From positions 40,768 through 104,767 of the forward strand of contig FLMG01002348.1 of NCBI GenBank assembly GCA_900088475.1: a DNA stretch of 64,000 nucleotides, read 5' to 3'. The DNA comes from Hyphochytrium catenoides. Its lineage: Eukaryota; Sar; Hyphochytriomycetes; Hyphochytriales; Hyphochytriaceae. The notes beneath the pieces are model-generated. The model worked only from the letters and a program-made list of their open reading frames with translations. It searched no databases and had not been told where the DNA came from. This document shows, piece by piece, positions 1 to 64,000 of this stretch (positions are counted from its first letter, which is position 1; every line of letters begins with the position of its first letter). The position numbers and the translations under genes are program-made.

Positions 1-3000
1 ATCATACGTGTAAGAGAAGGCGCAATATCGTTATAAATTAGACCAATATGACATATCTAGCTGGAAAATACTTTCTCCTTAAGACGCCATAACATGAGGC
101 CGTGATGAAAGGGCCATCAATTTGCGGTCTCGCAAGGAATTCAGGTGCTTAGATAGAAAGAGTTACGAGAAATGGACATACCGACAAGAGCTCCGGTGCC
201 GACCGCGACGAACATCAGCCCATAAAAGACCGTGTCCTCCTCAACCTTCTCCGCGTCCACGCCTGCTCAACAGGCACAGATGGAAAATAAAGTTTAGTTA
301 GGGAGGGATAAACGCGCAACATAAGGAGCCAACGCGACCAGAATTGGCAGTACTTCTGTCAAGCTTCTCACTAAGAACTAACTCCGAAGTACATACCAAA
401 GAATGAAGCAATCATCTTTGCAATAAAGAGTCCCCAGAGTGGGAAAACTGCGCCATTCATAAGAGCGCCCACCAATCCTAGACCCAGGAAGGGAAAGTTG
501 TTGCTCCCAAGGGAGTAAAGCCGTTTGGCAGGGACCTTGTATAGCCTAGTAGAGTAGAGAGAAGAGCAGCTGTTTGTAAGCACCTTTGGGATGTCCTTCT
601 ACATTCCAACTTCATAGATAAACGTCTCTTGGAAGGTGCGATCTCTCTCTTTGTCCTGAGGATACGTAACCTCTCCTCCGCCCTCCTCCCTTCCGGCCGA
701 GTCCTTGTTCTTCGCGGTTACACTTACTCTTCCTTCTTTGCTCCTGTCTCTAAATCCAGCGTAATCCCGGCATTTGACTGAAAGACAGAGGTACTTGAAG
801 AGACAAGTGTTGCGTCCCTTCCGGGATACAAAGTTGAACTTCCTGCTTCTCTGCGCTCATCCAATAGCACCTGGGAACCCCAGAGGCTACTCCGCCGGTG
901 ACACTCGTCGTCTTCATCTTTCACCTCTTCTTTCTGTCTATCAACCAGACGGCGATAGTGGCCATCTTCTATCGCTAAGAGATCTTCGTGCTTGCCTTCC
1001 TCAACCAGTCTTCCGGCCTCAAAGACAGCGATCTTATTGGCATATCGAATGGTTGATAGACGATGAGCGATAATAATAGTTGTCCGCTTATGCTTCTCCA
1101 GAAGAGAATCTAACGAGGCCTGGACAATCCGCTCGCTTTCATTATCTGTTTATAGAAGCAAGATCGCCAGGGTATGAGGCCATGAGAATATAGAGGAGGA
1201 AAGTGAATGGACTTAGATAACGCCACGTCCTCTGACTTTCACAGGAGAGTGGACTGTCAGAGATATAACGAGGGAGATAACCAACACGCCCAAAGAAAAC
1301 TTGAGGTACAAGACCTCTGCCTACCGAGTGCAGAAGTAGCTTCATCCAGCACCAAAATGGCTGGGTTCTTGATAATGGCACGAGCTATCGCAACTCGCTG
1401 GCCATTAAAACAAATGAAGGAAGGAGGAGGTGATATTTAGTCTCGTCGTCTGAACACAACCTTTTGGTCCTATGCCTGACCTGCTTCTGCCCTCCTGAGA
1501 GCTGGATGCCCTTCTCGCCAACTTCAGTCTCAAAGCGCTTGGGGAAAGACTGAATAAACTCATAGGCGTTCGCAAGTTTGGCTGGAGAAACAAGGAGACC
1601 ATGATGATGCAGGGCAGAAAAGAAAGTGTCAGAGGTGCAATAGCCATGCTCTCGAAATTCACTAGGCGCAAACGTAAGCGAATGATAGTGGATTAGCGCG
1701 CAGAAGCCCCAAGACGACAGCAGTCTCGTATGAGAACATAGGAGCGCTTGAATTCGTGAATCCGGGACAGTAATGTCTTTACCTGCACTCTCTACCTCAG
1801 CCATCGTGCAGCCAGGCTTTCCATTCGCAATATTCTCCGCAATAGTGCCACCGAAGAGCACCGGCTCCTGACTCACAAGCCCTAAATGGTGCCAATAGAA
1901 GGTCAAAACAGAAAATAATCCAAAGTGGTGGTAGAGAGAAATGCGGTGTGAGTTTACATGACTAACTTTCAAAACGTCAAACCAGAGGCAGAAAAGAAAG
2001 AGATACTGACCAATTTGCTGTCTGAGCCATCGAACATTAAGCGTCCTGAGATCCATCCCATCAAGGTACACCGCTCCTTCTTGAGGATCATAGAATCTTT
2101 CCAGCAGCGCTACAGCCGTGCTCTTTCCACTTCCACTATGGCCCACAAGAGCCACCGTCTCTCCTGCCCCAACCTTGAGGTTGTAGCCCCTGCAAACAGG
2201 GGCCTGAGGGCGGGTAGGATAGGCGAACGTGACATTTCGGAACTCCACCTGCAACGTGACATGGTAACGAAAGTGAGATAGCCACATCGTCAGTAAAACT
2301 CAGAGAAAGAAAGTCGACTGAGCAGGTCAAGACATACATGACCCTGGACAGGATGGAATGGCTGGGAACAGGACGACCCCTACCCACACACAGCTACATC
2401 GAGTGTGTCCTACCTCGCCTCTGACAGTTGTCAGTTTATTCCCTTCGTCGCTCATAGCATCGATATGTGGCGTGCGGTCCAGCAGGTCAAATATCGGCGC
2501 TGCCGCCGCACCAGCCCCCGCTACTGCCATGAAGGACGGCGCGGCCTGGCCAAGCGCGATGGAAGCCAGAATCACAGAAAAGAAAACACCGACGACCACA
2601 CCACCTGAAGCAGTTGTACGTGTGAGGCCAAGAAGAGGTAGGACAAGAAGGTCACAAAGCTTAACAGTACCCTGCTAACGACACTAGACTCAGAAGAAAA
2701 AAGTGCCAATAAAGAGCTATAGCGCATAGACAAGGAGGTGGAGTGTCAGACCTGTGACGCAGGAGCTGTCTGATGTGCCTATGAAGCATCCCCTACGAAT
2801 GTCATCAGCCACCACCTGGCCGCCATACCACATGCCTAATGCATAGGCTGCAAATGAGAAAAAGAAGAACAAGCCGTTGGCGATCCCAAGAGCCACACTC
2901 TTCTTAATTCCTCCTCTTTCGGCGTCCTTTAGGTTCTCCGCATAGCTAAACGGGAAGAGGCAACGTTAAAGAGATAAATCAAAGAAGTGAAGCCGTAAAT

Positions 3001-4794
3001 GGAGGAGGAGAACGCTACTGATAGGGATAGCATATGGAAAATGAACAAAGGTTACCTACCGTTGCACTTCTCTCTTCTGTCCGCCAAACGCGACCACAGT
3101 TCGGATGGAAGACAGCACCTCCGAGGCCACGGCCGCGGCCCGTGCATAAGCTTCCTGGGTCATGCTCTGGGCTTTCCCCGATGACCTAGAGAAAGAGACG
3201 CGAACGGATATAGAAGAGGGAAACAGGCGATGTCAACTAAGCAGAGCGGACAGATTAAATGAGGCAAGTGAAGGGGGATTTGAAGGACGAGTGAAGTGAC
3301 CCCTTATCATTGTCGCCTCCTGGGTCCCATAGGTCTTCCCATATTGGTTGACCGGCAGTCTTTAGCATACCTCACAAGATTCCATGCAGTGAAGCCCAGA
3401 ACTGGCAGCACGGAAATGATAACGAGTGTCAATTCCCAGCTTTTAGAGAACCCCAGGGCATAGCCTCCAATAAACATCGAGGAATGCTGGATACCGTCGG
3501 CAAACTTACGACCAATGCCCTCCTATGTAAGGCCACAAGTTAGATGTCAGACATAGACACATGCCCTCTAAGTAAACCCAAGCATCTCCGCCACGCAGGA
3601 TCATACTTTGACTCAAAGGTCATCAGCAAGTATGCGGGTAGAAACGACACAAACAAACCAACAATCTTGACAGTATTGCTACCAACGGTTGACGAGAGAC
3701 TAAGGCAAGGTCACAGCGAACTGTGAAACAGAAAGACAAAGAAGCTAGGGATAGCGTAATGTGTCCTAAGAAGCAGCAAAACGACAACGAGAGAGTAAGT
3801 CAACCTGAATGGCCGTTGTCTTTTCTACGACTCCGCTGACAAGGTCTCCAGAGTTCTTGAAGTCAAACCAGCCGATTTCCTGCCTCAAGATGGCAGCTAC
3901 ATAGTGCTTTCTCAGCTTCCTGGTCTGTCTCTCCGCAGTGGTGTTCCAGCAAAACGCTTGTAGAAAACCGGAAACGAGGGCGACCGCTGCAAAGATGCAG
4001 AGATATTGCACCTGCTTGAGCACCTCGTCCATAAACTAGCAACAACAAGAGAAGTGTGAGATGGTGGCAAGTGAGATCTTGCGCAGTGTCAGGCTAGTAG
4101 AGACATTCTAAAGAGAGAGACACTGAGTAACACGACATCAAATCCTGAACCTAGAGACAAGTGGACTGCAGTTATTATGGAGAGGGAAGGAGGATCTGAC
4201 GCGGTTCAGGAGTAAAGTGTGGATTAATCTACGCAAACGCCGAAAGGACATATACTGCAGCATGGCTCTTAAAGGTGTAGGGCGAACGTTCCAGAAAGTA
4301 GGTACAACTCCTACTTCGTCATTGGTCCCGTTAAGTGAATCAAAGAGCTGCCCAAGCACTACTGTCATCGCAGGCTGGACCAGACCCATCAGCACCGCTC
4401 CCACACTCCCCACGACCATCAGGAAGATATCAAGCTCATCTGCATAGGAGAAGATCCTAATGAAAGACGGAGTATTGGCTAGTGGATCATCCACATGGAT
4501 TGCACCCTCCTCTGGAGCCCGTTCATTAGGCATGGCAGGTTTGGCATCAGGCCTTGGGTCTCTAGTGGTGACAGACAGGTCACTCTTCCTCTCTGCCGCC
4601 TCTGTGGAAGGCCCAGATGTCTTCGGCGTCAGGGCCTGAAAGTAGGGTGCCTCAACAGGCTCTCTTGATCCCTCGGCCCCGCGCATATTCGAAGCCTCAA
4701 GGCACAAAGGTCCTGTAGCACTCGGATCCTCACCGGGTGAGCGCGCGGCCTTTGCGCCGATGTCGGAAGCACTAGGGCTGTGAAGTTGTGACAT
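1..4794 (-). CDS. ABCB-type full ABC transporter (C-terminal part beyond the left edge)
   Basis: ATP-driven membrane exporter of the MDR/P-glycoprotein (ABCB) class. Exons read from the minus strand are about 4794-4315, 4035-3805, 3532-3371, 3185-3060, 2945-2752, 2604-2414, 2248-2011, 1881-1783, 1581-1481, 1397-1325, 1145-728, 670-584, 545-397 and 262-182. A hydrophilic N-terminus of about 110 aa precedes the first transmembrane domain. The first nucleotide-binding domain is complete: Walker [11 protein letters not shown]-loop LVSQEPVLF, signature LSGGQ, Walker [12 protein letters not shown] and H-loop [10 protein letters not shown] charged linker follows, then the first helices of a second transmembrane domain, so this is a full rather than a half transporter. 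The second ATPase lies outside the window. The ATG at 4794 was chosen because an upstream in-frame extension has only a GTG. Substrate cannot be inferred. The exon 670-584 is the least certain. Confidence 0.9.
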
Positions 4795-7700
4795 TGTCTG
4801 ATTGCATTCCTCCGCTGCCAATTTCTCAAACGTCCAGCCGTTGAGCACTCGAAGTAGCACACAAGCGCCAAGGCTGCAGAAGTACGCAGTAAGAAAGGTC
4901 AGAACGCAACTACAAGTACGGCATGGTAGAACGACAGCGACGAAAGGCTGCTAAGCGAGACAGGACAAAGAGCGGGAGCAAAATGGAGGAGTGAGAGGCA
5001 GAGATGGAGCTGGATCGTGGGATGAACCGCTGCGCATAGGGTGTGAGCTCCAGGCAAACGGAGGCTACTAAAGATAAGAGGCATGAAGCCGAAGAAACCA
5101 ACACTGCAATATACTATCAGGATTGAGGCGAGCTTCTTACGCGGAAGGACACACCGGCGGCTGTTATGTACACTGGCGAGCAGCCTAAGGTAGAGTGGTC
5201 TTAGTACTCTTAGGGCACGAAGAGAAACGAAAAATGATGATCTGGGCTTTGGGCCTTCTCGACCTACTCTTATTAGCTCCCCTAGTGCAGCCAAGACATT
5301 GTCTCATCTACCGTCTCCCTCTCAACCCCCATCGTCTGGCGCTTCGTCAATATCGTCCATTGTGTCATCTGCATCGTTGGGCTAGGACGGGCACTTCTCA
5401 CGGCTTGGGTCTGCTCCTCCCTCCGCCTGTCTCACCGTCGACCTTACTCTTCTTGCCAGTCGACAATCCCACAACCTGTGGGCAGAAAGTCCCTTATCTA
5501 GACATTTTGGCCCTCTTCTCATGATGCCGAAAGGAGAGGATTTCTTTCGTCCTAAGATGCCGCCCAATAATCTTTCCTTCCTTCCTCTCTCTTTCTCCCT
5601 TTTTCTCTCTCTCTCACTCTCTCCTCTCTCATCTCTCATCTCTCCTCCTCTTCTCTCACTCACTCCTCTTCTAACTTCCTCTTTTCTCATTTGTCTCTCT
5701 GTCTACATCTTCTACGAACTCTGTTTCGTCTCTCTTTCCCTCTTTCCCTCGTCTCTCTCTTTGGTATCTTTTGGACGTTCTTCAGCCTTTATACCGCGTC
5801 TCCCTATCACAATGTATAATACAATATCTATACAACAGACACAGAACTGATTGATAGTTAAACCTCCCTCGTAACGTGTGTTACGTTCTATGATAATACT
5901 GAAACTCTACTATCTCTGGCACTATCGACTATCGCAAGCTCGTATCCTCACAAAGTTGCTGAAGTCAAGGGAACGACAGCGAAGACCACCGAGACACCAA
6001 GGTAAGACAACACCAGTGCGGCAGCGGCGCTGTTGAAGCGGCAACAACGTGAGGTATCTCCTGCCCTATCTCTGAAAATGTGGGGGCTCTAGCACCTCTA
6101 GTACTTGAGGAAGCAGTCCCTAGACTTTTCTCCTTAGTGCTGGTGCCATAACAGCAACAAGTGGATCCTCCGGCTTATAGATTAAGAGGAGGAGCCACAA
6201 GAAGGTGGATGATGAAGAGAAACGAAAGAAGCAGCAGCCGATGTCATGATGGTCAAGGAAAGAAGTGGCATGGGCCGGTATGTGAATGTCCAAGCAGGAA
6301 GAAAGGTATCGAGCAATAAACTACCTCTTGGTGTAATATCTTCCTTCTAATATGGAATAAATATCTTTGTTGTGACTGTGCATCTTCTTCGTCGAGTCAG
6401 CTACCCTATTATTATTGCCTGGTTCACTACAAGTCATATATCATCATTAACCTCCCAGCCGCAAGCACTACCAGGATGAGGGAAGTTTTCTTCTGATGGT
6501 AGTGGCACAGTGCTCCTCCACCTTTTCGAAGAGGAAGGCTGGTCAGTAGAAGAACCGCATTGCCGTCTCAAAACAGAGAGAGATGAACAAGGCGTCTGGG
6601 AATCAAATCATTCTTCGTCGATGCGATTGAAAGAAATGACAAAAACGCTTGGTTTGATGATGGGCTGTTGAATGAGCAATAATTCAGAAGCACCAAAAGG
6701 AGTTGCGCTCATGCCATCCACAGATGCCTAATCATGCCAAATAATAAATAAAGAGCGCTATTGTGTTATTAGCTGATGGGCTGGCTGGACAGCCAGGCCG
6801 GGAAGGGGAGGGGGATGACAAATAAAAACGTCGGACAAGAAATAGTGGCGAAGTGCGTCCAGCCGACGGGTAAAGAAGAAGTGCAATGGGAGAGGAGGAG
6901 CGCTGGGGAACCACGAGGCCAGAGACGCGTTGATAGTAGCACGCATTAAACATTGAAGTGTCAAATGAAGTGACTAGCCGGGAGTCCTGGACAACGTCAT
7001 CAACGGGCAGATCAACAAGCAGAACGCTGGACAACAACCCAAGATGCGTTTGACATACAACTGACGATGATTTCAGAGAAGTAAGAGCACCACCCATCCA
7101 GGAGCTCTCTCTCCTCCTCCAAACAACATAGTTGAGAAACATTCTATTTTCTTAGGAGGAACAAATGAAGAAATATGTCACAGTCATACAAGGAAGAAGA
7201 CGATAACGAGGGTAAAGATTAGATACCAACAATCCGACGCGACGGTCAGTAGCAGCTCCCCCCAGTTCAAGCGCAAGAAGGAGAAGAAGGAGGAAGGCTA
7301 GTGAACCGACTGATGTATCATGTATGAAGGAATATGGGAATACAGGCTTATCAGAGACAGGAATAAATAACTAATGTCAATTTTGGGCTATTTTAGCTTT
7401 TGTTGGTCATTCAACCCTATAATCTCATAATAGTTCTTTTCACCGTCTCTGCTGATCCTTCTTAGCAACACCATCATCCACCATTCCTTGTCTTTATCAC
7501 TAAAGAACTACAAGGACGATGATGAGGGCTTTTATAGCATTTTCCTTAGCTGATGACTACCGCCGCGAGGATCCGAAGTCCAAGAAGAAGCTCCTATTGC
7601 TATACTTATATAGTCGTCTATGCTTGTGTTGTTGTTGTTTATCTGGTGATGGGAGAATTTATATGATTTATAGGAAAGCAAGCAGGCAGGCTTTGCTAGC

Positions 7701-7983: not shown

Positions 7984-8057
7984 GGCCTGTTGGCCCAATT
8001 GGATAAGGCGCCTGACTACGGATCAGGAGATTCTGGGTTCAAGTCCCAGGCGGGTCA
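7984..8057 (+). tRNA. tRNA-Arg (anticodon ACG)
   Basis: The cloverleaf folds fully. The acceptor arm GGCCTGT (7984-7990) pairs with GCGGGTC (8050-8056), with three G-U pairs. The D arm carries GCC/GGC around AATTGGATAA. The anticodon arm is CCTGA-CTACGGA-TCAGG, with ACG at positions 34-36. The T arm is CTGGG-TTCAAGT-CCCAG. A follows as discriminator. There is no intron and no encoded CCA. A run of five T (8062-8066) directly downstream is a typical RNA polymerase III terminator. ACG, read as ICG after A34 deamination, decodes CGU/CGC/CGA. The G-U-rich acceptor arm is the only oddity. Confidence 0.95.
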
Positions 8058-8676: not shown

Positions 8677-11600
8677 ATGAGTGGCTCGGTTGCCGCTGGC
8701 GGCCCACATGACCTTGGTGGCTTGGTGCCACCATCTCCAGTTAAGAATAGTGACGAGGCTTTCCCTAATCTGCAGGATCCCGCGGTAGCGAGCCAAGTGA
8801 AGGACAAGCCTGAGAAGCACTGGGAAATGCAAGTGAACGCCCTGCTTGTCGTGCTTTCATGCAAGAAGCCAAAGCCTCTTCTCACCACTGATGAGCTTCG
8901 AAGAGGTGAATCTTCTATTTCTTATTTGCTCTTGCTCTTCCTATTGAATAAGCCTCTGCGATAAGGCTTCTTACTAGCTTCCTAGTCACTTTCCTCGCTT
9001 TCGTCTCTCTATGTTCCTCTCCGTTCTTCCTGACTACTCTGCCTCGCTTCTGTCTCTTGAGTTCGTAATATGACGCTCGTCTACATTGTTTACCTCTCTG
9101 TGGCACCTTATTGCCCCGTCCTCAGGCGTCGAAGCCTTGCAAGAGAAGGTGTACCAGTCTTGGGGTTATTATGACCGATGGGCTGCGTCTATGACGAACA
9201 TCCTTATTGAGAGAGGAATCATCTCCTTAAAAGAAATGGAGGATGAGCTATCAGGGGACGAAGCAAGAGAAGGGGCTTCTTTCTCTTCCGACCCCAAGTT
9301 TAAGACCGGAAACAGAGTGCAAGTGAAGAAGGAAGACACCCGCTGCCGATGGAGAAAGCCTCATCTTCGAACTCCAGGGTAACTGTGGCACCAATACGCA
9401 TTCCGAGCCTGCCAACTGCCTATACTAAAGACTTTTTGGTCTTTGCTATCGTCCCTCCTTCTCCGTAGGTATATCTTTGGGTGCAGTGGTACGATAGAAC
9501 GGTACTGTGGTTGCTTCCCTGACCCCTACTACGAGGCCTTCAGGGACTCGGCTCCTCCGCAGCATCTCTACCGTGTTCGCTTTCTTCAAAGGGATCTTTG
9601 GCCGGAGTATGAAAGAGGGAACGATGACACAGTGGACGTGGAAGTGTATGAGGGATGGCTGAGAGCAGAAGACGTTGAAAGGACGTTTGAGGAAGGAGGT
9701 GAAGATGTCGAATACCGCCGTGCACCAACTGACGAATGCCAAGAAGGTAGGGAACTTGCTAAATTCGCTGTCAGGTCCCGTTGTCATCTGCTTTCCGCGC
9801 CGCGCTATCATGTGATCAACTTACAGCGCCTGGCCTGCCTGCCTAGGTCATTTAGCGATATTCTCATGCTGACTAACATGCCATCCTCGAGTCATCTGCC
9901 CTTGTAGCGAATATTTGTTTCTGCCTTTCGTTTCTAAATATTATCATTTCTCTTACCGTCAACCTTGACACAGTCTTCTCCTAACGCACGTCTCCTTCGG
10001 CCATGGAATTGTGTAGACGGTTTGGACCATCACTCGCATCACCACCATGCGGATGGCGACCACGGGCACGTGCACGAAGCAAGGGCTACAGTGGAGCAAA
10101 CCGCCATCGAGAAGGAAGGGGAGCCAACAGCGGGACAGGTACTGATATTACAGCTATAGTTACACGAAGTTGACTAGAGTGGGAGGGAGGAACGTCTGTT
10201 CCATTGTGAATGTTCACCCGTAGCCTGTCGAAGCCAAAATAGTGTCTTTGGTCTTTCCTATCTTCTAACCGGGAGGCCCTTAGGCTGTCGGTGAGGCTCT
10301 CCTTCGTCTCTTGGAGAGAAAGGGGATAGTCCGCAGGGACGAGATCAATCAAGTCATAGCAAAGACGGAGGAAGCTCACCATAAATTGCTTGGTGTACGT
10401 GGACTATATTGATTACTATGCGTCCTGCACTCCTCCATTGCTTCTGATACGAACTGGAACCCCACCTCTGTCGTGTCCTCCTCTTTCTTAGGCTCGTTTG
10501 GTTGCACGGGCCTGGACGGATAGCGAGTTCAAGGATAGGCTGCTCGCAGATGCTAGCAAAGCGGCAGAGGAGCTTGGCATCAAGACTAGCAATCCTAACG
10601 CTCCAACCGTGCTTACTGTCGTAGAAGACACGCCCCAGGTATGGTCTTTCGAAATGGCTCTGACGATTTTTTTTGTCACTACTTTCTCCTCCTCTGCCTA
10701 GCCCATGCGGCAATGGGATTATACAATGGCATTGGGGAATTCTTGGCCATTTCGTGTACGTTTCATTGCTGCTCACCACACCCTTGCTTACTGTTGTAAG
10801 TTACATGCCCGACGGTGGTAGGCCTTGGGCTTGTAAAGCTCTTGATGATGGCCCTCTCACAAGCTGTCCTCCTCTTCTCTCGCCTTCGGTAGGTCCACAA
10901 CGTGATTGTCTGTACTCTATGCAGCTGCTACCCATCTTCCATCCTTGGATTCTCCCCATCGTGGTACAAGAGCAGGTACATTCGCCACCATCACAGATTG
11001 TGGGGTGTAGGTGGGAGAGAGAAAGTGAGGAGGAAGGGAGACGATAGATTAATGGTGGGAAAGCTGGTGGAAATGAAAGAGACCAAGCGGCACAGTGGTG
11101 AGAAAATCAGAGCAAACAGGAGGCTTCCAGGGTATGGTCCGCTCCATTGCCTGCGACAAGAATCTCCAACACTGCTGGCATACGAAAGACAGAGGCATTG
11201 AGCGCAGACAGAGAACAGGAGGTTGAGATATTTTTACTTCCCGGTGAAGAAAATTAAAGCATTGTGTTCTCCAGAACCTATAGGTCCAGGGTGGTAAGGG
11301 AGCCACGTACTGTGCTGGCGGAGGTAAGAATAACCTTCAGTCTCCTTCTTATAGCAGATAATCCTCTTCTCACTTTTGCCTGCAATCGTCCGACAATTTC
11401 ACGCGTGCCTCCTTCAGTTTGGGACACACCTGCCTCCAACAGTGAAAATTCAAGTCCACGACTCCACTGCTGACAACAGGTGAGCGAGACTGCCTAACCA
11501 TTCTGACGGCTCCTCTCTGGCTATCTGACACCCTCAACCTTCTTGTCTTTTCTCTATCCCTTCATTTTTTGTCTTTGCCGTCCTATGGACTCAACATAAT

Positions 11601-45247: not shown

Positions 45248-48200
45248 ATGGGCGCTCTCTTCTGCTGTCTGGACTGCTGTCGCTGGGGCAATGATTATCC
45301 CTCTCGAGCGGACAGATCAAGGGCCAGGAACAGCTCGGAGGATCTAAAGGAGGTTATCAAGGAGGGAGTCTTAACTAAGGTTGGGGACTATTACAGGTGA
45401 GAGGCAGCAGAGATCCTTGGCTCTAAGACCAAAGGCGATCCAGGGCTCTTTCCTTAGGCCGTCTCCCTTGGGCTCCTTCTACTCTTTCACGGCTCCTGGC
45501 CTGTGCCTTTGTTCTCTCTCAGTAACTTCTCTGGATGATCTGGCGGTCTGCAATGTCTCACCTTAGGCTCTGGTTGAATAGGAAACGTCACTTCGTGCTC
45601 GTCCCAGGGCAGCTGCGATATTATGAGTACAAAGTAGATCTGGGAATGCCGCTGCCTAAGCAGGAGATTCCTGGAGTCAAGCATGTCATCTCTTATCCGA
45701 AGGTAAGGCTAATTTGTGGCTACAAAGCCTTTATGCCTACTGTGCGCAGCAACTGTGGCCAGTAGGCCTTGTCCTTATCCTAGCGCCTTCTCCCTTTCTG
45801 TCAGTAAGCCCTGACACAGCTTCTGCCTCTCTCCTTGCGTCCGCACCAAAAGTCACCTGGCGCTATGGCTCTTACTTCAGTGACTCCTCCTATCTCCAGC
45901 ACCCCTCGAGGGGTGATGTTGCTCAGCCCGGACGAGCGTACGTCAGGTTAGGACAATGTTCCTTCTCTATTGGTGGCGCTCACTACGTTCGACTCTCATG
46001 TGCTCTCCTTCTCTCTCTCTTTCCTGGCTGATAGGAGCTCCTTTCGAGTGGTTTGTTCGACCCAGTTTGACGTCAAGCAATCTCTTTTACCTCAGCGGTA
46101 TCGCCCCTGATGGACAACGCGTTACGTGGACTCTGCAAGGTAGATAATTACTCTGCTCTCCTCTCGTACGGGCGGACAGATGGGGTTCGAAACAGCCACG
46201 CACAAATAGTGGATTGGTCCTGTCCTCTGAGGCTATCTTGCTTCATAACAAGATCAGAACGGAACCTCCGTTTGCAGCTGATGGCATGGCGCGGCAGCGC
46301 AGGTCGACAGCGGGAAGGGAGAGAAAGACTGAAAAGGGGTAAAAGGAGTGGGATGCAAAAAAGAGTCGATCTGCATAAGACCGCTCTGAGTAGGTTCCGA
46401 ACGAAGCAACGCCTTGACAGAGGGAGTTGAGGCAGTATAGGAGAGTTAGTTTCTGTAAGAATCAGGGAACAAGGGGACTAAAATACTCTCCATGGTTCAA
46501 TGGGCGTTGGGCTTCATCCCTGCAGCCGCAACAGCCAAGGACCGGGAGAGCTGGATCTTGAAGCTTCGAATTGCGGCACGTCCAGCTTGGGCGCGGAATC
46601 TTCCATACTGTCAGATCTGCAAGTCTAAGTTCACGTGTTTTCGAAGGCGGCATCACTGCAGGTATGCAATTTAGGTGTGCCGAGAGAGAGAAGAATGATG
46701 GAGAACAGAGAGATGGATAGGAGAATGGTAGATCTTAGTCTTCAACTTTGCAGGAACTGCGGTACTCTTATATGCCAAGATTGCATCTCATGCTATGAAA
46801 AGATCGTGGTGCTAGGCTTTGGATCTCCGGTAGGGCGGAGGGTCATGCGTCTCTCTTATAACTATTCTCCACTCGCACCGTGTCTCTTTCAAATCCTCTC
46901 CATGTCTTTTTCCATGAGCCGCTTCTTTCTTTCGGCTTGTCGACGCTAAGATGGTCTTAGCCTGTCATGGGGCCTGCTTGTCCTAAAATCATCTCGCTCG
47001 ACTGGTGCATGGGCCGGTTATCCTAGCTCTGACCTAGCTTCCAGTGTGTCATGCTTTGGTTATGGCAAATATCAAATGTCCTCACCTGTCTTCTTTCTTT
47101 ATTAAAAGGTACCCATATGCCGAGACTGTCGTCCTCGCAAGGAGGGGATAGAAGTCGGCTCCAGGGTCTCTGTCTATGGAAAGCATACCGGCTATGTTAT
47201 GTATGCAGGGGTACCGCCTCCTGGAACCCGAAGAAGGCAAGCAATCCTTATAGAGTGAAGAAGAAATCGGTGCATCGCACCTTTTGAGCCTTTCTTTTCT
47301 TATTGGAAGGCATTCAGCGTATCCGGCACTTCATACCAGACGAGAAGACACCTTGCTTCTTTTTGCCTCCTGCTCTACATCACTTACGCTCCGAGGAATG
47401 CTTTAGTCGTCGGGCCCTTCGCGGTCCTACTTAACTGTTGGTCTTCAGTCATGCTCCTCCGTTTACTTTCCTTCTCCTTCTCAGCTGAAGCCTTTTGACA
47501 GACTACTTTCCTTCTCCTTCTCAGCTAAAGCCTTTTGAGAGACTAACATTTTTTCTATCCCGTCTGTCAAAAGGGCTCAGGAAGTTTACGGCGTAAGGCT
47601 GGACAAGAGTCTAGGAGACAATGATGGCTCTCCCTTCTTTTCTTGTGCGTTGGGCCATGGCCTCTATGTCCCGAAGGTTCATGTCTCCCGCTTTTCAGAA
47701 CAGCTTGTCGCAGCTACTAGAATTAAGGTATGTGTCGCTTCGTTATAAAGGCTTGCCTTATCCTCATCTCACCCTTGTGGCTATTCCTGCATGACTTTAT
47801 AGTGTCAGGTCAGACGATATCTAGCAACGCGTCGTGTAAATGCTATCCGGGACAGGCGTGTTTGGAATGCTCTGGACACCCGTCGCGAGGACAAGGCGAT
47901 CGCTAGAGGTTAGAAGGACAGGAAACTTGTCTTACACTCCAGTACCGCTTCCTTTAGGAAGTCAGGGCTATATTTCACTTGTGGTTCTCTTAAACTCTCT
48001 TTCCTTGTATGGCCTTCATTTCCTTTTCGTCGTCGCTGCAGAAACAACAAACAGAGGATGGCTTCTCGTGGGAGAACCTTGCTTACATATTGCTACTCTT
48101 ACTCTCGGCTCAAACAATAGATTTACCGCATCATTCACACCAAGCGCTGGCCAGACAACCTTCTGGCTCAAACCTGGATTGGGCCGCGGTGAGTTACTCC

Positions 48201-51200
48201 TTCTTCAAGGCGCGTTAGGCATTGCAGTGTCAAGATTTAGCTTCATCCTTCGCGTCGATGGTAACTGGAGGCTTCTCCTCTATTATCCTAGTACGGGGCT
48301 AGTATGTTCTACAGCGCTATTCGTGATGTCAAAGTTCTTCCTTCTGCACCTTATGGATCGCTGTCTCGTTCCGCATGCATACTTCTTTCCGAACCTAAGC
48401 GGGAGGCGGACCGGCAACTGCAATACCTCCGTGAGCCCATAGATTTCTCAGATTACCACGGGTCGCCAATTGAATTTCCTTTAACTGTGGAGTCCGTCTA
48501 CGCCATGATAGAACAGTTTCGAAGGGGAATCTGGCTGCATCGGTAAGAGGGTGTCTTGTGCCTCGAATGTCTCAGGGTCCTCGTATAGGAATCTGAAGGA
48601 AAGGTTTCTTCCTAAGAAGAGAAAGAGGTGCTAAAAATTCTGCTCTAATTGCGACCCACTCCCTTCTCCTCCTTGCGCTGTCAGGAACTACGTTTATAGG
48701 ATCTGCTGTTTGGCCAAAGACATCTTTGACCGAGAACCTACACTTCTGCATCTGGAGATACCTCCTGACTCGAAGCTGACGATTTTGGGCGATATTCATG
48801 GGCAACTCGGCGACCTTCTCACTATCTTCACCCTTAACGGTAAATGCACTCCGTTATACTCTGCCTTTTGCCGGGAGTAGCAGTTCACGTAGGATGAACT
48901 CTTTCTTTAATCTATTGCTATCATCTGTCAGTTCAGGGCCTGCTAGGGCTGCTTATGCCTTCTCCGTGTGCATCATTCCGCTCCCCTTCTCTTTGCACTT
49001 TGGCCACGTGGGCGTCAATCCTTCTTCTCGTCTCTTCTGATGCCGCACTTATTTGCTCTTCCCAGTAGCTGTCAAACAAGTCTAATGAAGCTTCTTCAAT
49101 CTTCTTGGCTAGTGGTCCCAGAGGTCTGACTCACGACAACATTTGTTAGGGTTGCCCTCTCCTTCGAATCCATATTTATTCAATGGGGATTACGTAGACC
49201 GTGGTTTTCACGGCGTTGAGGTCCTAATGGTGATCTTCGCTTTCAAGATACTCTATCCTGCGCACGTCTGGGTTCATAGGGGTAACCACGAGTGCCGATG
49301 TAAGACATGATACATCTCCCATTACTTTTTACGCCTATCTCAAGCAGTCGGCTTCTCCGTGCTATGTTATGTTTCGGCTGCCAACGGCATCTGTGGTGCT
49401 GACTCACTAGGTTTTCAGCGCTGAGGCAGACTGTGTCCTCCCTAGTCTCCCTTCCTGTTCTTTGAGGATACAATACTCTCTCACTTTCTCGTTGTCATAT
49501 CTGCCCCCCGCTGAGCCCTTCTCCTACCTTCAGTCCCTTATCAATCTTCTTCTGTCGTGACATAATGATCTTTCCCTCGTATCAGCGGTCAACTTTATGA
49601 TGGGTTTTGCCGAGGAGCTGGTACGAAAGTACGGCGAGAGACACTATACTGTAAGGGGATTAGAAGGAGGAGAGCTGCGTAGTCCTTCTCCGACCCCTTC
49701 GGCGTCTGCTCCTCATGACCTCTTCGAGCTATTTGAGAGTGTGTTTGACAGGCTGCCACTGTGCTCTCTGGTCAAGGGAAAGGTCCTCGTGGTGAGCTAA
49801 CCTTTCCTCTGATTTGGATTCTCTTGTGCATATGCTGCCGGCATCGTTTGCCACATTCATGCAGAGATTTATCTTACTGCCTTCCTATTCGAACCATGTC
49901 ATCGCCAGTTCTTGCTCTAGCGGTAGCTGATCTATCCGATATGTTTGCCCACTAACTGTTGATCTTCCCGTCTGGGTGATGCGATGCGTCGTCATACCAC
50001 TAGTTTCGCTGTTTGTTTCCCCCGGCGATCGTTCCCTGTCCTCTTTACATGACCAGCTTTCCAATTGCTTCTTTGTTTTTGCTAGTGCCACGGCGGACTG
50101 TTCTCGAAGGATGGCGTGACTTTGAGCCATATCTCTTCCATTAGACGGAAAAGAGAGGTCCCCCACAGTCCTAACCGCTTTGAAGAGGCCATCTTTGAGG
50201 ATCTGCTGTGGTCTGATCCGAAGATTCTGCAAGGGTACGGAAGCCACTCGTTCTACTAGCCTTATAAAGTAGCATTGGTATCTACTCTTCCCTCATCCTT
50301 CTTCCAAGTTGCTCTGAAGGACATCGATAGAGGTTGGTCGAGTAGTCCTTATATCAGTCCAGTCATCTGTGCCTCCGTCCGTTCTGTCCTGCCGTCTCCT
50401 GTTAGGACGCGCCCTTCCACGCGAGGTGCCGGAGTAGAGTTTGGAGAGGACGTCACGGCTGATTTCCTTAAGCGGAACGGGCTGGAGTTGATTATCCGCT
50501 CTCACGAATGTGTAGATAATGGCTGGGAAGTGATCCATGGAGGCAGGGTCATCACTCTCTTTTCCGCTTCCCTGTACTGCGGCGTCCAAGTAAGTCGGAT
50601 GAATGCGAGGGGAGAGGATTTAGACTCTTGAAAGAGAAGGCTGGGCAGCCTGTTACTTAGCACTTCGATATAGATCCTTTGGCATCTCTATGCTGCCATG
50701 ACAGGTTCTTTTTGTCTTTCAAACAATTACTTCGAAGTTCCATCTGCCTCCTCAAGTTCATGTCTATACAAAAACGACTCGGAGGGCGTTGAACCTTGGT
50801 CGTTCTGCAATCTAGGCCTTCTTCTGCTTGCGGATGGTGGCACTCATACCTCAATCTTACTTTTGCTTGATGGTCAGAACAACAAGGGCGCATACCTGAT
50901 TTTGAACAGTGACCTTCAGCCAGATGCCCACACATTTATCGCTCAGCCCTTACAGCATACGGATGTCAAAGGAGAGACCGCGAGACAAAAAGAGCAAAGA
51001 ATTCAGGGAGAGATAAAGTCAATGCTGAAAGCCCAGCTGTCAGGCGGGATTTACTCTATATACAGGTTAGCCCTCACATTTCTTGAGCCCACTCTTTTGA
51101 AGGTTCTTTGTGAGGATGTCTCGGCGGCGATCTCTCATAGTTGCATGGCTAATCCACCGATTCTACCTCTGCATCTGACCTTCTACCTTTCTTTCGGTTA

Positions 51201-53714
51201 GGCAGCTGAGGCTTGCAGATAAGGAGACATCTGGACTGCTGCCTTGCAACCGTTTCTACGTATCACTCAGTCAGGCCCTTAAACTCGATATCCCTTACAA
51301 GATCTATCTGCGCGACACCGTCAAGGAGGCTGGTGGACTTGTCGATTATAGGAGGTAAGGGTGGTGAAAACGTGAGATGGCCGCAAAAAGCGAAAGACCT
51401 CGACAGTAGATACGGTGAGGTCAATGACGAGCTGGAGGCCTGAATGACGTTCGGGGTTATGGCTACTATGGGTTGGCTCATTATATCTCTCTTCCTTGCC
51501 CGTTCTCTACCTAGATTCTTAGCTACACTAAAGGAAAGTGCCCCAGGGACTCCTCAAGAGCTGGAAAAGGTCCTTGGGCCATCTGCTGTCAAAGATATCG
51601 TTCAGGTGGGAATAGGAAATTGACCGCCTTGTGTCCGTCAACCTTGTTGTGTCCGCCGTCAGCGATGTGATTGGACCCTTTGTCTTTCTCGTTTTTCTTT
51701 GCTAAGTAGTCAGCCTTCTTTGACGTATCTACTGCAACGCGTGGTACCTTCCTTACCTGCATCTCTCCTGTCTCTCTCTCTCCGCTTTATGTTCAGAGTG
51801 TGAAGTCGGCAACAAAAATAGGAGAACGGATCCAAAACTTCGAGGCTAACCTTGCAGAGCGCGAAGGCTGCTTGACAGAGCGACAGGTTGCCTAGAGAAT
51901 TTGTCCTCTACTCATAGCAACATGGAAGCATTAGCACCGCTATTGACTTTGCAAGAGCATTGCACAAAGCAGATCTTGACGGTCTCCCTTTCTTGTCCTA
52001 GATGCTATCTACGTTTGAGGAAGTTGAGAGAAGATTACGCGTTGGAGTGAGCGCTCCGGAAGGAGAAGAGGAGAAAAAGAAAGAGGAAGAAGAGGAAAAG
52101 AAGGCTGTGGAAGGAGAAGGATTTGAGCTAGTAGGGCATGAGACAGGAGGGTTGAGCCCTTCGGCCTCATCTCAGGAAGAGGATGTCGTGTTGGTGACTA
52201 TGGATCCGGCCATGAGGAAGGCAAGCTCTCTATCTTTCTCTTCTCAAGCTCTTCACTATTCCCAAATCTCTTTTAATTTTCCTTAATAGCCAGCCCTCGT
52301 TAGTCCATCGAGCCACGCTTCTGTGAACAGAAGATGCTGTAGCTTACGTTCAGCTGTCTCGTCTCTTGTTCAAAACTTCGTCTTTTAACGGAACAGCTCT
52401 GCCTTCTAGACCCTGCTTAAACCTAGCGCTTACGGGCTCAACGTTATGGCATTGCTTCTTTGCAGCGTCTGCTAGCCTTGGTGGAACACCTTCGGAACAA
52501 GTACGGGAATCTTCACCTGGCCTACGAAATTACCGTCCGCCTGGGAGGACCAGATCGTCTGCGTATTGAGCTACGAGCACTTTCTCCTCCTCTCTCATCT
52601 ACGGAGGAAGACAGACTTCTGCAGCACTTCTTCGGTCCCAGGTCAAAACACTCATTGAACCTTTCTGTTCAAAAGTCTGACTCTTATTCTCCATCTTCCC
52701 CATTCGCCGTCCCACCCCCTCCGTAGTGCGTCTTATGCCCACATATATGGTGATCCTAGCATATGGTGTTCCTACAATTTACTCTCCTCCGAATGTCAAA
52801 AACCTCATGGCAGATTCCTCCTAGCTTCCCGGGACGTTCATTGTTCCTGGCTCTTGCGAGAAAGCTACGTGCTGTCTGATGTATGCCCTCTCTCATCTTG
52901 AATAATCAACTTGCAGACTGAAGTCGCCCCCAAGACGACACGCATTCTTCCAGTTGCTTCAGGAAGGAGAAAAGTCTCTCAACCTTGTTGCAGAGCTGAT
53001 TGAGCTGGTGAGTATGAAGAAAGACTTGGGAGGCATAGCCTCTTTTCCAGGGCTCCATCGGAATTTTTTTTCCGTTGCTCTTCCAATACTTCTCTAATAC
53101 CTTTCGATGGTTCTTTTGCCACGTTTAACAAATAGCCTTCTGTCTCGAATGACCAGGTACCCGCGTTGCCAGCTCTCTCGTTGGTCTTTGCCGCCAAGCC
53201 GAGTCATATTGAATCCATCTTTGAGCGATTTGATGTAGAACAAAGCGGAAGGTCTGCCCTAAGCTCCGCCTGGGGCTATCTATGTTCCATGTTACTATCT
53301 CTCAGCCTTACCCGCAGCGATTGACCGTGACTGCCAGAAGTCTGTTCTGTCGGTACCGCTCCTGTTGACTAACGCTGTTTCAGTTGAGGCCTAACTCTCT
53401 TTCCATTTGTCGGGCAGCATCTCTCTGGAACAGTACTTATGTGCCATGATGATTATCGGGCAGCATCTGGATGAGCCTTTGGAGGCACAAGAGGTCGAGG
53501 TAGGGTGAAAGAGGGGAAGCAAAGCTTTCGATGAGAGACTGAAGGGAGCAACATCAGAGGCAGGCGGATGTCACCAATAAAGACTTTCTTTATGCTCTAA
53601 GACCATTATCCGTACATGCAGGCAATCTTGTTCTTACTGGACAATCTGGAGGAGGACCGGATCAATTACTACGAGCTCATTGTCAAGGTGATGCGGGTTA
53701 CAGAGGCAAGGTGA
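45248..53714 (+). CDS. PH-FYVE-CAP-Gly-IQ-PPEF-type protein phosphatase
   Basis: Predicted Ser/Thr phosphatase with lipid- and microtubule-binding modules. First exons: 45248-45396, 45567-45702, 45853-45946, 46035-46139, 46526-46661, 46754-46829, 47109-47254, 47574-47727, 47803-47908, all in phase. The start [11 protein letters not shown] could be myristoylated and palmitoylated. Domains in order: PH ([20 protein letters not shown] to RVTWTLQ); FYVE finger ([26 protein letters not shown]); CAP-Gly ([35 protein letters not shown]); IQ motif ([14 protein letters not shown]). The PPEF core follows: [16 protein letters not shown], metal motifs GDIHGQ, GDYVDRG, RGNHEC, HGGL and RSHE, then [11 protein letters not shown] and NNKGAYLIL. 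The C-terminal extension has an acidic Lys/Glu run, [14 protein letters not shown], and degenerate EF hands ([14 protein letters not shown]). PPEF enzymes normally begin at the IQ motif. CAP-Gly end and IQ share exon 47574-47727, which argues for one gene. The exon at about 48043-48190 is uncertain. Confidence 0.8.
47464..47543. repeat. 40-bp tandem duplication carrying an acceptor-like site
   Basis: TACTTTCCTTCTCCTTCTCAG and the bases following it occur at 47464-47503 and again at 47504-47543, with two substitutions. Each copy ends a pyrimidine tract with CAG. Both lie in the intron before the CAP-Gly exon 47574-47727, just upstream of the acceptor I inferred (CAAAAG at 47573). Confidence 0.9.
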
Positions 53715-61107: not shown

Positions 61108-63280
61108 GTGTATATACCTCTCTCTCCCTCCCACCCTCTCTTCGTCTCACTCTCTTTCTCTTCCTCTCTCTGCCTCTCTGCCTCTCTTTCTCTTCACCTC
61201 CCTTTCATCTCCGTCTCTAATTTCCCTTTCATCCTTAACTCTTCCTTTCGCTCCTTAGCTTTCTTTATTCCAATAAATTACCTGCTACTCTTTTTCGACG
61301 GGGTTCCTGATGCATTACGAGTGATCTTAGTGTCCACCCCAGTGTTGAGAACCAGGCCGTACACGCAGCTCGTGTTCCTTAGCACACAGCCACGAAGCAG
61401 CATATTCTTTACAAAGACTGGCTCCGGACTCTGTAGGTGACAAGCAAAGGGAGAGGAAGGCGACAGCGCTGTGAATTATCAAGTAAACCTTACATGAGCT
61501 CTAGGGAGAGGAGAGCATAAGCAATGACAGGAGAGGAGAGACGAGCGGTTAAAGGAGCGCTTCTCCGCCGCATTTGTCGTCGTCTCGTTCGTGATTCTTA
61601 CCTCTCCTTGAAGCTGGAAGGTCCCCGAGAACTTGTCAATAGCTCTATTGGGGTGCTCGCACATCACTCTTCCTCGCAGTTCGTACAGTCGTCCTTCGCC
61701 TGCTGCTATTTCCTCAGTGCTTTCCAATGCTTGTCTCATCTTCAAATTCGTCTCTCCGTCCAATGACTTGGTCTCAATGTAGCAGATGTCAGTTGGAGGT
61801 GAACCTTCCGGAGTGCCCACGCCCAGAATCAGAATGTCTGCTGGGGCTCTAAAGAGAGACATGTCCATAGACATAACGACATTTAGAGGTAGGAGAACTT
61901 AGGCTAAGAAAAGTAGCAAGAGTGAGAACCCGGATGGCTTTAATCTAAACGATGGAGAAGAGAAAAAGAGAGAGAGAGAGAGAAAGTAGAGACAGAGAGA
62001 AAGAGACAGAGACAGAGAAAGAGAGAGGGAGAGAGAGAGAGAGAGAGGAAAGAGGACGAGCGAGAGAGAGAGGACGAGAGTGAGCGAGAGCGAGAGCGAG
62101 AGAGAGAGAGAGAGAGAGAAAGAAACAAAGAAACAAAGAAAGAGAGGAAGATTCCACGATGTGTGTGAAAGGGCCGCACTGACATCTGCCGATTCTTGAC
62201 CATAACAATGTCTCCAGTCATAACTTCCTTCCATTTCTTGGTAACAAAGCTCCGGGATGCAAGCTCATAGACCTGGCACGGCGATGAGTTGGCTAGTGCG
62301 TCGGCCTGATGTCGCTTAATATCTTCTAAGATTGCGAAGACCGCATCAATCAAAAGGATGAAGACCAGCACGGGGAGGAGGGTAGGCTCTCCTCCTGCGG
62401 CGAATCGAGAAAGGGAAAGCGTGTTAGTAAGCATAGATGCGTGAGGGAACGAAAGAGGGAAAAAGAGAAAGAGAGAACAGCGAACGAAAGAGAAAGAGAG
62501 AGAAGTTCATGGCGAGGGAGAGAGGGACATGAAAAGCGTGACTGAGGGCGTTAGCGCAGAAGAGTATAAGGTAGACTCTGCAATAGAGCAGGGTAAGCAC
62601 TTTGACCCCGTAGAAGAGGAGTCTTATGATAACAACCCCTGAGCTTCCACTGAGCTTCCCCTGGGAAGAAAGACAAAGAGAGAGTAAGACTCCTACCTGT
62701 GTTACTGATGGCGGGTATAGACTGGAAGATGATCACCACCAGGAAATAGACATTTGCAACCTTTTGAAAGGACTCAAAGAGAAACTTTGGCAGGAAAGAG
62801 GCAACGGAGTACTTGGCCGTGATGACGACGTTATTGCAGAAGCGCTGTGCGGCGTTGAAGACTGGATCATTCAGGAAGACATGGCGGTACTGAGGGTCCA
62901 GCGCCGGGATAGGGTCAGTTGAGGCCTCTGTAAAGGAAAGAGTTGATGTCGGAGAGGAGTCAGTACAGAGAGAATGAGAGCGAGATGCGAAGAGTACAGA
63001 GAACTGAGAGAATGGAACTAAGAAAGGTAAAAAGAGGATTAGATGAGGATATCTTCTCATTAGGTTGCGAGCATCGAAAGAACCCACGAGTAACAAGGGA
63101 AAGAGTGCTGCTACGATCATGTAAGGGATGATGTCAATGGCTTTGTTTGCCCGTAAAGGCTTGTCTCTCTCTCTCTCTCTCTCTCTGTTTTCGTCTTTCC
63201 AGTCCCCAATCTTTTCCCCGAAGCTTACCTTGTCCTCCAACATTGACCCTAACCTCGCCGGCATAAGCTGCACGAGACAT
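54076..63280 (-). CDS. P4-type ATPase, phospholipid flippase
   Basis: Moves phospholipids from the outer to the inner membrane leaflet. About 22 exons read from the minus strand, among them 63280-63229, 62927-62697, 62394-62183, 61848-61602, then roughly 61435-61289, 60920-60611, 60425-60173, 59803-59646, 59348-59112, 58959-58738, 58497-58300, 58090-58030, 57660-57481, 57172-56957, 56660-56515, 56224-56126, 56025-55910, 55675-55480, 55197-55094, 54990-54764, 54682-54557 and 54265-54076. That is about 1,300 aa, normal for the family. Motifs: N-terminal [20 protein letters not shown]; actuator loop [14 protein letters not shown]; phosphorylation site [10 protein letters not shown]; nucleotide domain [12 protein letters not shown] and [31 protein letters not shown]; hinge [20 protein letters not shown] followed by [16 protein letters not shown]. 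Later membrane segments include [20 protein letters not shown]. The tail has a poly-Lys run and [11 protein letters not shown], like the FAFSxDE end of other flippases. Lipid preference is not readable. Confidence 0.95.
61070..61210. repeat. CT microsatellite in a flippase intron
   Basis: CT-rich run on the plus strand, so purine-rich on the sense strand of this minus-strand gene. It lies between exons 61435-61289 and 60920-60611. Confidence 0.85.
61960..62150. repeat. GA microsatellite in a flippase intron
   Basis: About 190 bases of GAGAGA/AAAGAG on the plus strand, which is CTCTCT on the gene's sense strand. It lies between exons 62394-62183 and 61848-61602. Confidence 0.9.
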
Positions 63281-64000
63281 GTTTGAGTGTCTAGCGAGCG
63301 ATCTCTGTCTGTCCTAATCGTGTGACAGCATCTTAGCTACCTAAAGAAACTTTGTAACTCTCTCCCCTTCAATCCCGTTTCTTCCTTGTTTCACTTGTTT
63401 CGCCGTCTTCTTCCCTCTCCCTAGCTTGTAATGGTAGCCAAGCTTTTCTTAGGGAGGGAAGACTTATTGAAGCACCAGCAGCGCAGACGGAGACTGTGTC
63501 GACGCTATGAGGACTGCATAAAGCGGAAAGCGGGTGATCTGGCGCGTAGTCATCAAACGAAAGCGAAGAGTTGGAGCTGAGAGGGAGAAAGGAAGGGGGG
63601 TTGGACGAGCGAGGATGTCAGCTTGCCCACAGACAACGGAAGACGAAAGGAAACGGAGTTAGATCGGAGTCGAGTACTCGTGTACTGCCTTAAGATTCAA
63701 GGCACTTACGAAGTAAAAAGGGGATGGAGGTCGAGAGAAGAATGAGAGGCAAAAAAAAAGAAAGAAGCGAGGATACAGAGAAAGAGGGTGGAGAAAGAAA
63801 GAGAGAGACGAGAGCGAGAGAGAGAGAGAGACAGTGACAGAGGGGGTGCTTTCTAAGGTTTACTTGGGAGGATTGGTGGGCGAAGGTGGGTTAACCCTGT
63901 TCCTGCGCAAGAGCGAGCGGAGAATGAGAAGGAAAGAGGTAAGCAACAGAGAAGACTCAGAAAAGCTGAGACAAGAGAGAGAGAGAGAGAGAGAGAGAGA
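63281..64000. other. 5' flank of the flippase gene, purine-rich
   Basis: No gene seen. The stretch 63750-63840 is rich in GA, and 63974-64000 is a pure GA dinucleotide run reaching the window edge. The flippase promoter is expected just right of 63280. Confidence 0.45.

Follow-up and report, generated by a model that had tools for sequence, protein, structure and literature searches.

The presence of a composite PH-FYVE-CAP-Gly-IQ-PPEF phosphatase gene was confirmed at positions 45248-53714 of the forward strand of the window, that is, the whole stretch of 64,000 nucleotides of Hyphochytrium catenoides DNA that was analysed. The gene model, obtained from in-phase splicing and homologues, has 26 exons and gives one open frame of 1196 aa with a terminal stop; its introns are of the GT-AG (23/25) or GC-AG (2/25) type. 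According to Pfam and alignment, the order of domains in the protein is PH, FYVE, CAP-Gly, IQ-like helix, PPP core and EF-hand-like tail, and the computation established these domains, their order and the single frame, as well as homologues with the same PH-FYVE-PPP backbone. As the original prediction had proposed, the named segments are in phase up to a PPEF-like core with all of its metal motifs (26-exon model, Pfam and motif scan). Exon 5 (46526-46661) is common to PH and FYVE and exon 7 (47109-47236) to FYVE and CAP-Gly; in the splice model exon 8 (47574-47727) holds the end of CAP-Gly and the first part of the IQ-like helix (AATRIK), again as had been predicted. The domain search of the predicted protein placed FYVE, CAP_GLY, PPP5 and Metallophos above the Pfam cut-offs and PH just under.

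Splicing between exons 9 and 11 (47909-48291) is ambiguous. Over this stretch there are 12 in-phase solutions with one intron and 391 with two, some alternative models start exon 11 later, and the top-scoring in-phase solutions are not identical with the adopted model, in which a possible exon 10 lies at 48055-48188. The acceptor of this exon, at 48054, scores -0.3, under all 23 acceptors of the introns used for training (lowest 2.5); it was chosen because the stronger acceptor at 48041, with a score of 8.0, appears to be out of frame with an exon 11 starting at 48292. Concerning a possible tandem copy upstream, the Metallophos match at C463:32210 looks calcineurin-A-like by eye in the six-frame translation, and for this reason a tandem duplication was not seen there.

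Relatives of the protein were searched for by scoring 7978 candidates, of which 3132 were at E<=0.001 and the best 120 were listed. FYVE is joined to PPP in 26 of these best 120, and those with a named organism are all oomycetes; P0070 of Phytophthora nicotianae, P0074 of Pythium oligandrum and P0099 of Saprolegnia parasitica are examples of such PH-FYVE-PPP(-EF) proteins. They share with the composite the PH-FYVE front, an I-K IQ-like helix, a W(N/S)xLE linker and the PPP core, but their CAP-Gly is a remnant without the GxNDG block. The oomycete proteins are annotated as serine/threonine-protein phosphatase or hypothetical protein, and no description of a PH-FYVE type phosphatase was found in the open-access literature searched. 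The relative P0001 also has FYVE together with Metallophos. CAP-Gly is joined to PPP in 35/64 matches, including the MMETSP transcript ORFs P0006 and P0008. The stramenopile CAP-Gly-IQ-PPP-EF proteins, such as P0002 of Aphanomyces invadans, P0014 of Tribonema minus and the copy C966 in the same genome as the composite, resemble it in the CAP-Gly, the IQ position, a WNxLD linker, the PPP5 region and the PPP core, whereas their precomputed domains are without PH or FYVE. A paralogue from the same genome, C484, has one open exon containing PH-FYVE, a CAP remnant, IQ and the start of PPP5, followed, after a single GT-AG intron of 302 bases, by the PPP-EF part; the N-terminus of the composite matched it only at residues 138-265 (5e-13). 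Among the matches listed, PH-FYVE and CAP-Gly occur together in one PPP protein only at 45248-53714. The composite is less novel than had been implied, because each half of its architecture is already in databases. It should be noted that a search with N-terminal residues 30-330, limited by its word filter, gave one FYVE protein and missed P0001, though it was in the size range, and so is no evidence of rarity.

The first 11 residues of the protein (45248-45280) follow a relaxed N-myristoylation pattern (PMC1885993) and include four Cys, and acylation through a myristoylation-like start and palmitoylation at these cysteines is possible. The PH domain (exons 1-5, aa 36-179, 45353-46578) has a Pfam E of 4.5e-5 and, with 24.4 bits, falls 0.7 bits short of the cut-off (25.1); the predicted structure of P0001 has a PH-like strand order and C-terminal helix, as read from DSSP, and no PH fold match was seen in fold searches of this model, whose match lists were filled by the PPP core. 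The FYVE zinc finger (exons 5-7, aa 187-240, 46600-47132) has 46.4 bits against a cut-off of 27.8 (E 4.4e-12) and keeps RRRHHCR and the cysteine pairs in the motif scan. WxxD and RVC are canonical FYVE motifs; here WARN and PIC stand in their positions, and since the Asp and the Arg are missing, PI3P binding is only predicted. Residues 1-330 matched 15 out of 15 other PH-FYVE-PPP proteins tried, with E from 4e-28 to 1e-38 (106-137 bits), and the alignments extend to residue 330 in 12 of them; the best of 20 shuffled controls reached 32 bits. At the sequence level, this N-terminal likeness is beyond chance. Of the vesicle placement proposed originally, an endomembrane address seems plausible, given the PH-FYVE conserved across the oomycete protein family and the myristoylation-like start.

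The CAP-Gly domain (exons 7-8, aa 248-309, 47154-47676) was recognised by Pfam, with 31.7 bits against a cut-off of 26.5 (E 1.5e-7), and by a profile of relatives. On this profile, built from 19 of 21 chosen rows of stramenopile-type CAP-Gly phosphatases, the CAP-Gly/IQ region of the composite scores 73 bits and the 13 other FYVE-type proteins 18-29 bits. Most of the latter (11/13) align mainly with the second half of the profile; P0074 and P0076 align along the whole of it (26-27 bits), and a CAP-Gly remnant is therefore likely in these two. Pfam CAP_GLY at E<=10 was absent in the five oomycete FYVE-type proteins tested, and also in P0001 and C484. The consensus motif of CAP-Gly is GKNDG; the composite and P0006 have GDNDG, P0002 and P0014 GDCDG. 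By Pfam the domain of the composite appears intact, and its binding to microtubules, through tubulin or EB, is putative because GDNDG replaces the consensus.

Before the catalytic core there is a PPP5-type region (aa 459-511, 48448-48748; Pfam PPP5 4.6e-6, 27.2 bits vs 23.5). The PPP core itself (exons 12-16, aa 520-746, 48773-50514; Pfam Metallophos 2.6e-32) contains GDIHG, GDYVDRG, RGNHE, HGGL, WSDP and RSHE, covering 5/5 of the metal/catalytic motifs GDxHG, GDxVDRG, GNHE, HGG and RSHE, and its PDB matches include PP5 (4.9e-78) and rdgC (1.1e-60). In Foldseek the P0001 model matched RdgC with apo-calmodulin best, in lists dominated by the PPP core. The RdgC/PPEF order IQ-PPP-EF is found as a homologous helix, the core and an EF-like tail. 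The composite is a PPP-family serine/threonine phosphatase with predicted activity, which we term PPEF-like since the glutamine of a true IQ motif is missing.

The IQ-like helix of 14 residues and the conserved WNALD linker were located by alignments at the end of exon 8 and in exon 9 (47719-47908). A homologous helix is thus present where an IQ motif had been predicted, but it is degenerate (I-K) and Pfam IQ gave no match at E<=1, although relatives also do poorly against this model (P0002 with 12.5 bits where the cut-off is 20.3, P0006, P0014 and C484 with no match). The position of the glutamine is occupied by Lys in the composite, in P0001 and in 31/32 FYVE-type rows (25 FYVE rows plus 7 close kin without precomputed FYVE; P0134 gave no match). 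Unlike the composite, 17 of 28 CAP-Gly rows have Q, with 6 giving no match and 5 something else, P0023 among these 5 having matched outside the helix; in C484, too, the pattern matched outside the helix, which by eye reads I-N. Where C-terminal EF hands had been predicted, an EF-like pair is in place (exons 24-26, aa 1124-1185, 53205-53678), but it is under the Pfam cut-off (EF-hand_7, E 1.5e-4, 22.5 bits vs 30) and its last two loops, of 12 residues each, are non-canonical. Strict EF loops were counted in 25/26 FYVE rows (without P0069) and 28/35 CAP-Gly rows, the scan covering the entire protein in two CAP-Gly rows where GDxHG did not match. The composite has 0 and C484 has 4, FYVE rows have 0-2, zero telling little in P0001 and the short FYVE rows because these sequences end early, and CAP-Gly rows, unlike the composite, have 2-5. 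With no canonical EF loop and the IQ glutamine lost, the inference of a calcium/calmodulin-tuned enzyme is weakened.

Gain and loss of the front domains were considered on two core trees, one of 49 rows (2/51 failed the core pattern) with long branches and loosely aligned tails included, and one of 41 rows, from which six long "other" rows were dropped and in which P0145, P0128, P0102 and P0054 failed a stricter pattern. Neither free tree unites the FYVE rows in a single clade; of 200 bootstrap trees, 2% and 0%, respectively, show FYVE as one change, and in the second tree the starred branches force two FYVE changes. The C966 copy clusters in both trees with oomycete, brown-algal and Tribonema proteins, which makes a heterotrophic stramenopile the likely source. 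Searches bearing on the source gave no match to a 70-base probe, no light-harvesting family (only Synechococcus of the 14 controls responded) and no elicitin, the last carrying no information because none of its controls responded. In the second free tree a branch (95/94) sets P0001 and the oomycete FYVE rows apart from the composite, which lies towards the CAP-Gly rows. AU tests on the second tree gave 0.17 for all FYVE rows as a clade (not rejected), 0.101 for the composite with C484, 0.175 for the composite with P0001 and the oomycete-type FYVE rows, and 0.158 for the composite with the CAP-Gly rows; with these values the core tree leaves gain versus loss undecided. The FYVE rows branch outside the CAP-Gly clade in the second free tree, which fits an ancestral composite on a weak root. 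We mention, as a tentative and rather doubtful scenario, that PH-FYVE-CAP-Gly-IQ-PPP-EF was ancestral, that one lineage retained CAP-Gly and calcium control but not PH-FYVE, and that the other kept PH-FYVE while CAP-Gly, IQ and EF hands decayed; the composite would be a relic with both docking systems and could therefore connect vesicles of the PI3P type with the ends of microtubules.

Among known systems, animal RdgC/PPEF has the same order of IQ helix, PPP and EF, but with true IQ and EF hands and, to our knowledge, no PH, FYVE or CAP-Gly. Leishmania PPEF, in the portion of its account available (PMC1885993), is dual-acylated (myristoylation/palmitoylation) and has an endocytic location, and its EF hands bind no calcium. 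Its acylated N-terminus and degenerate EF hands resemble the myristoylation-like start and EF tail of the composite, whose own endomembrane site is deduced from sequence, whereas PH, FYVE and CAP-Gly are absent from that portion. Toxoplasma PP7, as far as the accessible part of its description goes (PMC8785970), similarly carries CAP-Gly ahead of a calmodulin-binding motif and a PPP phosphatase, but PH-FYVE does not appear in it.

We judge it probable, with some reserve, that the locus is one gene for a membrane-tethered PPEF-like PPP phosphatase with a PH, FYVE and CAP-Gly front, in which the microtubule-type domain is retained and calcium control is weakened or lost. The ambiguous splicing at 47909-48291 and an in-frame ATG at 48304 could point instead to two adjoining genes, the first for a PH-FYVE-CAP-Gly-IQ protein that stops before 48300, the second for a phosphatase of its own that starts at about 48304. 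However, exon 9 already has the WNALD linker, which in aligned homologues stands before the PPP core. Because C484 shows the same order, its PH-FYVE exon remaining open as far as the PPP5 region, and so do single proteins elsewhere, including the CAP-Gly-PPP matches and MMETSP ORFs reported above, such a split is highly improbable, and the single gene of the original prediction stands.

Calmodulin on the IQ helix and Ca2+ on the EF hands might still release the core, as in RdgC; the homologous helix, the EF-like tail and the Foldseek match to RdgC with calmodulin are consistent with this, but the Lys in place of the glutamine, the lack of canonical EF loops and an EF pair under the cut-off make it unlikely. 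As far as the available account extends, Plasmodium PP7, a phosphatase likewise of IQ-PPP-EF order, depends on calcium and binds calmodulin, which favours such a switch, so that loss of calcium control should not be assumed for the composite. The front could also have decayed into non-functional CAP-Gly and FYVE remnants on a soluble phosphatase, as the deviations from WxxD, RVC and GKNDG and the eroded CAP-Gly of the other FYVE-type proteins examined would suggest; we consider this quite unlikely, as the FYVE cysteine pairs and RRHHCR are kept, CAP-Gly is above its Pfam cut-off and PH-FYVE is conserved in oomycete relatives.

The earlier interpretation was thus partly supported. In the single membrane-tethered phosphatase that we favour, PH and FYVE, perhaps together with an acylated N-terminus, would hold the enzyme on phosphoinositide-bearing endomembranes, and the CAP-Gly, which has eroded in the relatives with FYVE that were examined, could provide a further contact with microtubules or acidic-tailed proteins. 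Control by calcium via EF hands and calmodulin would be weakened or lost, and for this reason position, not Ca2+, is likely the main control. The composite joins the CAP-Gly type and the PH-FYVE type phosphatases into one family, and it is a case in which the shift of a phosphatase from regulation by calcium to regulation by membrane address can be tested.

The coding model of the window gene, in an assembly of 42.5 Mb and 1105 contigs, runs from an ATG at 45248 to a TGA at 53712-53714 on the forward strand and comprises 26 exons encoding 1196 residues, with zero internal stops. The richness in introns of the genes in the window marks the DNA as eukaryotic, and the 25 introns of this one (75-386 bases) are GT-AG in 23 cases and GC-AG in two; both GC-AG introns (donors at 47237 and 52221) share the donor AAG|GCAAGC. 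Pfam profiles above their cut-offs were Metallophos (2.6e-32), FYVE (4.4e-12), CAP_GLY (1.5e-7) and the PPP5 region (4.6e-6), while PH reached 24.4 bits against a cut-off of 25.1 and the EF-hand pair 22.5 bits against 30. When residues 1-797 were compared with PDB, the nearest protein was PP5 (4.9e-78), followed after the PP5 chains by rdgC (1.1e-60).

The continuity of this gene can be followed in its exons. PH ends and FYVE begins within exon 46526-46661, and the last FYVE cysteine pair lies with the CAP-Gly start in exon 47109-47236; the original observation that one exon holds the CAP-Gly end together with the first part of the IQ-like helix was confirmed, both being found in exon 47574-47727. 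Just upstream, inside intron 7, a CT-rich stretch of 34 bases occurs as a tandem near-copy at 47465-47538 (47465 and 47505), with a candidate acceptor in each. Between IQ and the catalytic core, a splice scan returned 12 one-intron and 391 two-intron solutions in phase, and the modelled exon 10 acceptor is weak; residues 361-459, approximately, are therefore uncertain. Exon 9 contains the WNALD linker, which in the aligned homologues comes directly before the PPP core region. Since this linker is present, and since a paralogue on another contig (C484) is open across the same region, a single gene is favoured, and the sequence argues for one gene at this locus despite the unsettled IQ-core splicing.

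Exon 1 of the C484 paralogue (4289-5335, minus strand) is a single open frame that takes in PH, FYVE, a CAP-Gly remnant and then the IQ helix, and extends into the PPP5 region; it is followed by a GT-AG intron of 302 bases and the PPP-EF part, so that its coding model has one intron versus 25 in the window copy. The protein (1075 aa) gave FYVE at 2.1e-11, PPP5 at 2.6e-8 and six EF-hand_1 stretches, PH remained below cut-off (19.0 bits), and CAP_GLY was absent at E<=10. The same genome also encodes, on contig C966, a CAP-Gly-IQ-PPEF copy (CAP_GLY 42.9 bits) with 72% identity over 306 core columns to P0010, a relative grouping with oomycete proteins. Upstream of the window on the same contig, a calcineurin-A-like gene in pieces was seen by eye in translations of locus L013 (C463:28000-37500) at about 4070-6100.

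Among relatives, CAP-Gly with Metallophos occurred in 35 of the 64 proteins of a first homologue search, the named carriers including oomycetes, brown algae and Tribonema; the set also contains two transcript ORFs from MMETSP, P0006 and P0008. One of the 64, P0001 (704 aa), has the order PH-FYVE-CAP remnant-IQ-PPP; that it is a copy from this genome was ruled out, its top identity across a long stretch being 43%. A second search started from a profile that combined the window protein with C484 and P0001, and FYVE with Metallophos was found in 26 of the best 120 of 3132 matches, the named organisms among them being only oomycetes (Phytophthora, Peronospora, Peronosclerospora, Plasmopara, Hyaloperonospora, Pythium, Globisporangium, Saprolegnia and Aphanomyces). 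By precomputed domains, FYVE and CAP-Gly were together in none of the 64 first-search proteins or the best 120 of 3132. Window residues 1-330 matched all 15 FYVE-PPP proteins tried (P0001 and 14 from the profile listing; E 4e-28 to 1e-38), 12 of the alignments extending through residue 330, with 106-137 bits versus 32 for the best of 20 shuffled controls.

The CAP-Gly part sets the window copy apart. Against a CAP-Gly + IQ profile of 122 positions built from 19 CAP-Gly phosphatases, it scored 73 bits (positions 7-119) and the C966 copy 93, versus 18-29 bits in the 13 other FYVE-type proteins compared (11 from the profile listing, P0001 and C484), 11 of which match mainly over the second half; the window copy thus retains both docking systems. 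Its calcium parts are worn: strict EF loops number 0 in the window protein, 4 in C484, 0-2 in FYVE rows (n=25) and 2-5 in CAP-Gly rows (n=28). Lysine replaces the IQ glutamine in the window protein, in P0001 and in 31 of 32 FYVE-type rows (the remaining one gave no match), and in CAP-Gly rows this position is Q in 17/28, otherwise in 5/28 and without a match in 6/28. The shared lysine speaks for kinship of the window protein with FYVE-type proteins of oomycetes. The core tree counts in part against it: in the free tree the FYVE rows do not group as a single clade, and the window protein falls on the CAP-Gly side (95/94), although an AU test did not reject all FYVE rows as one clade (p-AU 0.17).

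Part of this architecture is already published, as Toxoplasma PP7 shares the order of CAP-Gly before a calmodulin motif (PMC8785970). The main text of an oomycete phosphatome paper mentions neither FYVE, CAP-Gly, EF-hand nor PPEF (PMC10925823), a Phytophthora FYVE-protein paper deals with ankyrin-FYVE proteins, the word phosphatase being absent from its available text (PMC10912746), and the Phytophthora kinome paper notes FYVE on kinases (PMC3019232). No relevant paper on a FYVE or CAP-Gly phosphatase in an oomycete, Phytophthora or stramenopile was found in the open-access literature.

Elsewhere in the window lie a phospholipid-translocating ATPase N-terminus (62554-63336, minus strand; PF16209, 3.2e-24), an exon of an ABC transporter ATPase (1388-2299, minus strand; 2.3e-16), a tRNA gene (7984-8057, plus strand; RF00005, 51.4 bits) and a nitrile hydratase beta C-terminal domain (9383-9904, plus strand; 1.2e-10), which is uncommon in eukaryotes.

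Concerning mechanism, the N-terminus of the window protein (11 residues) fits the relaxed N-myristoylation pattern applied to kinetoplastid PPEFs. In fly RdgC, contact between the N-terminus and the catalytic domain is abolished once calmodulin binds the IQ motif (PMC6161916). Plasmodium PP7 is described as calcium-dependent and calmodulin-binding (PMC11559042), contrary to the weak or absent calcium switch proposed here. We infer the membrane, microtubule and substrate steps: in the simplest reading, PH, FYVE and lipid would hold the phosphatase on endomembranes, its calcium switch would be weak or absent, and CAP-Gly may contact microtubules or acidic-tailed partners.
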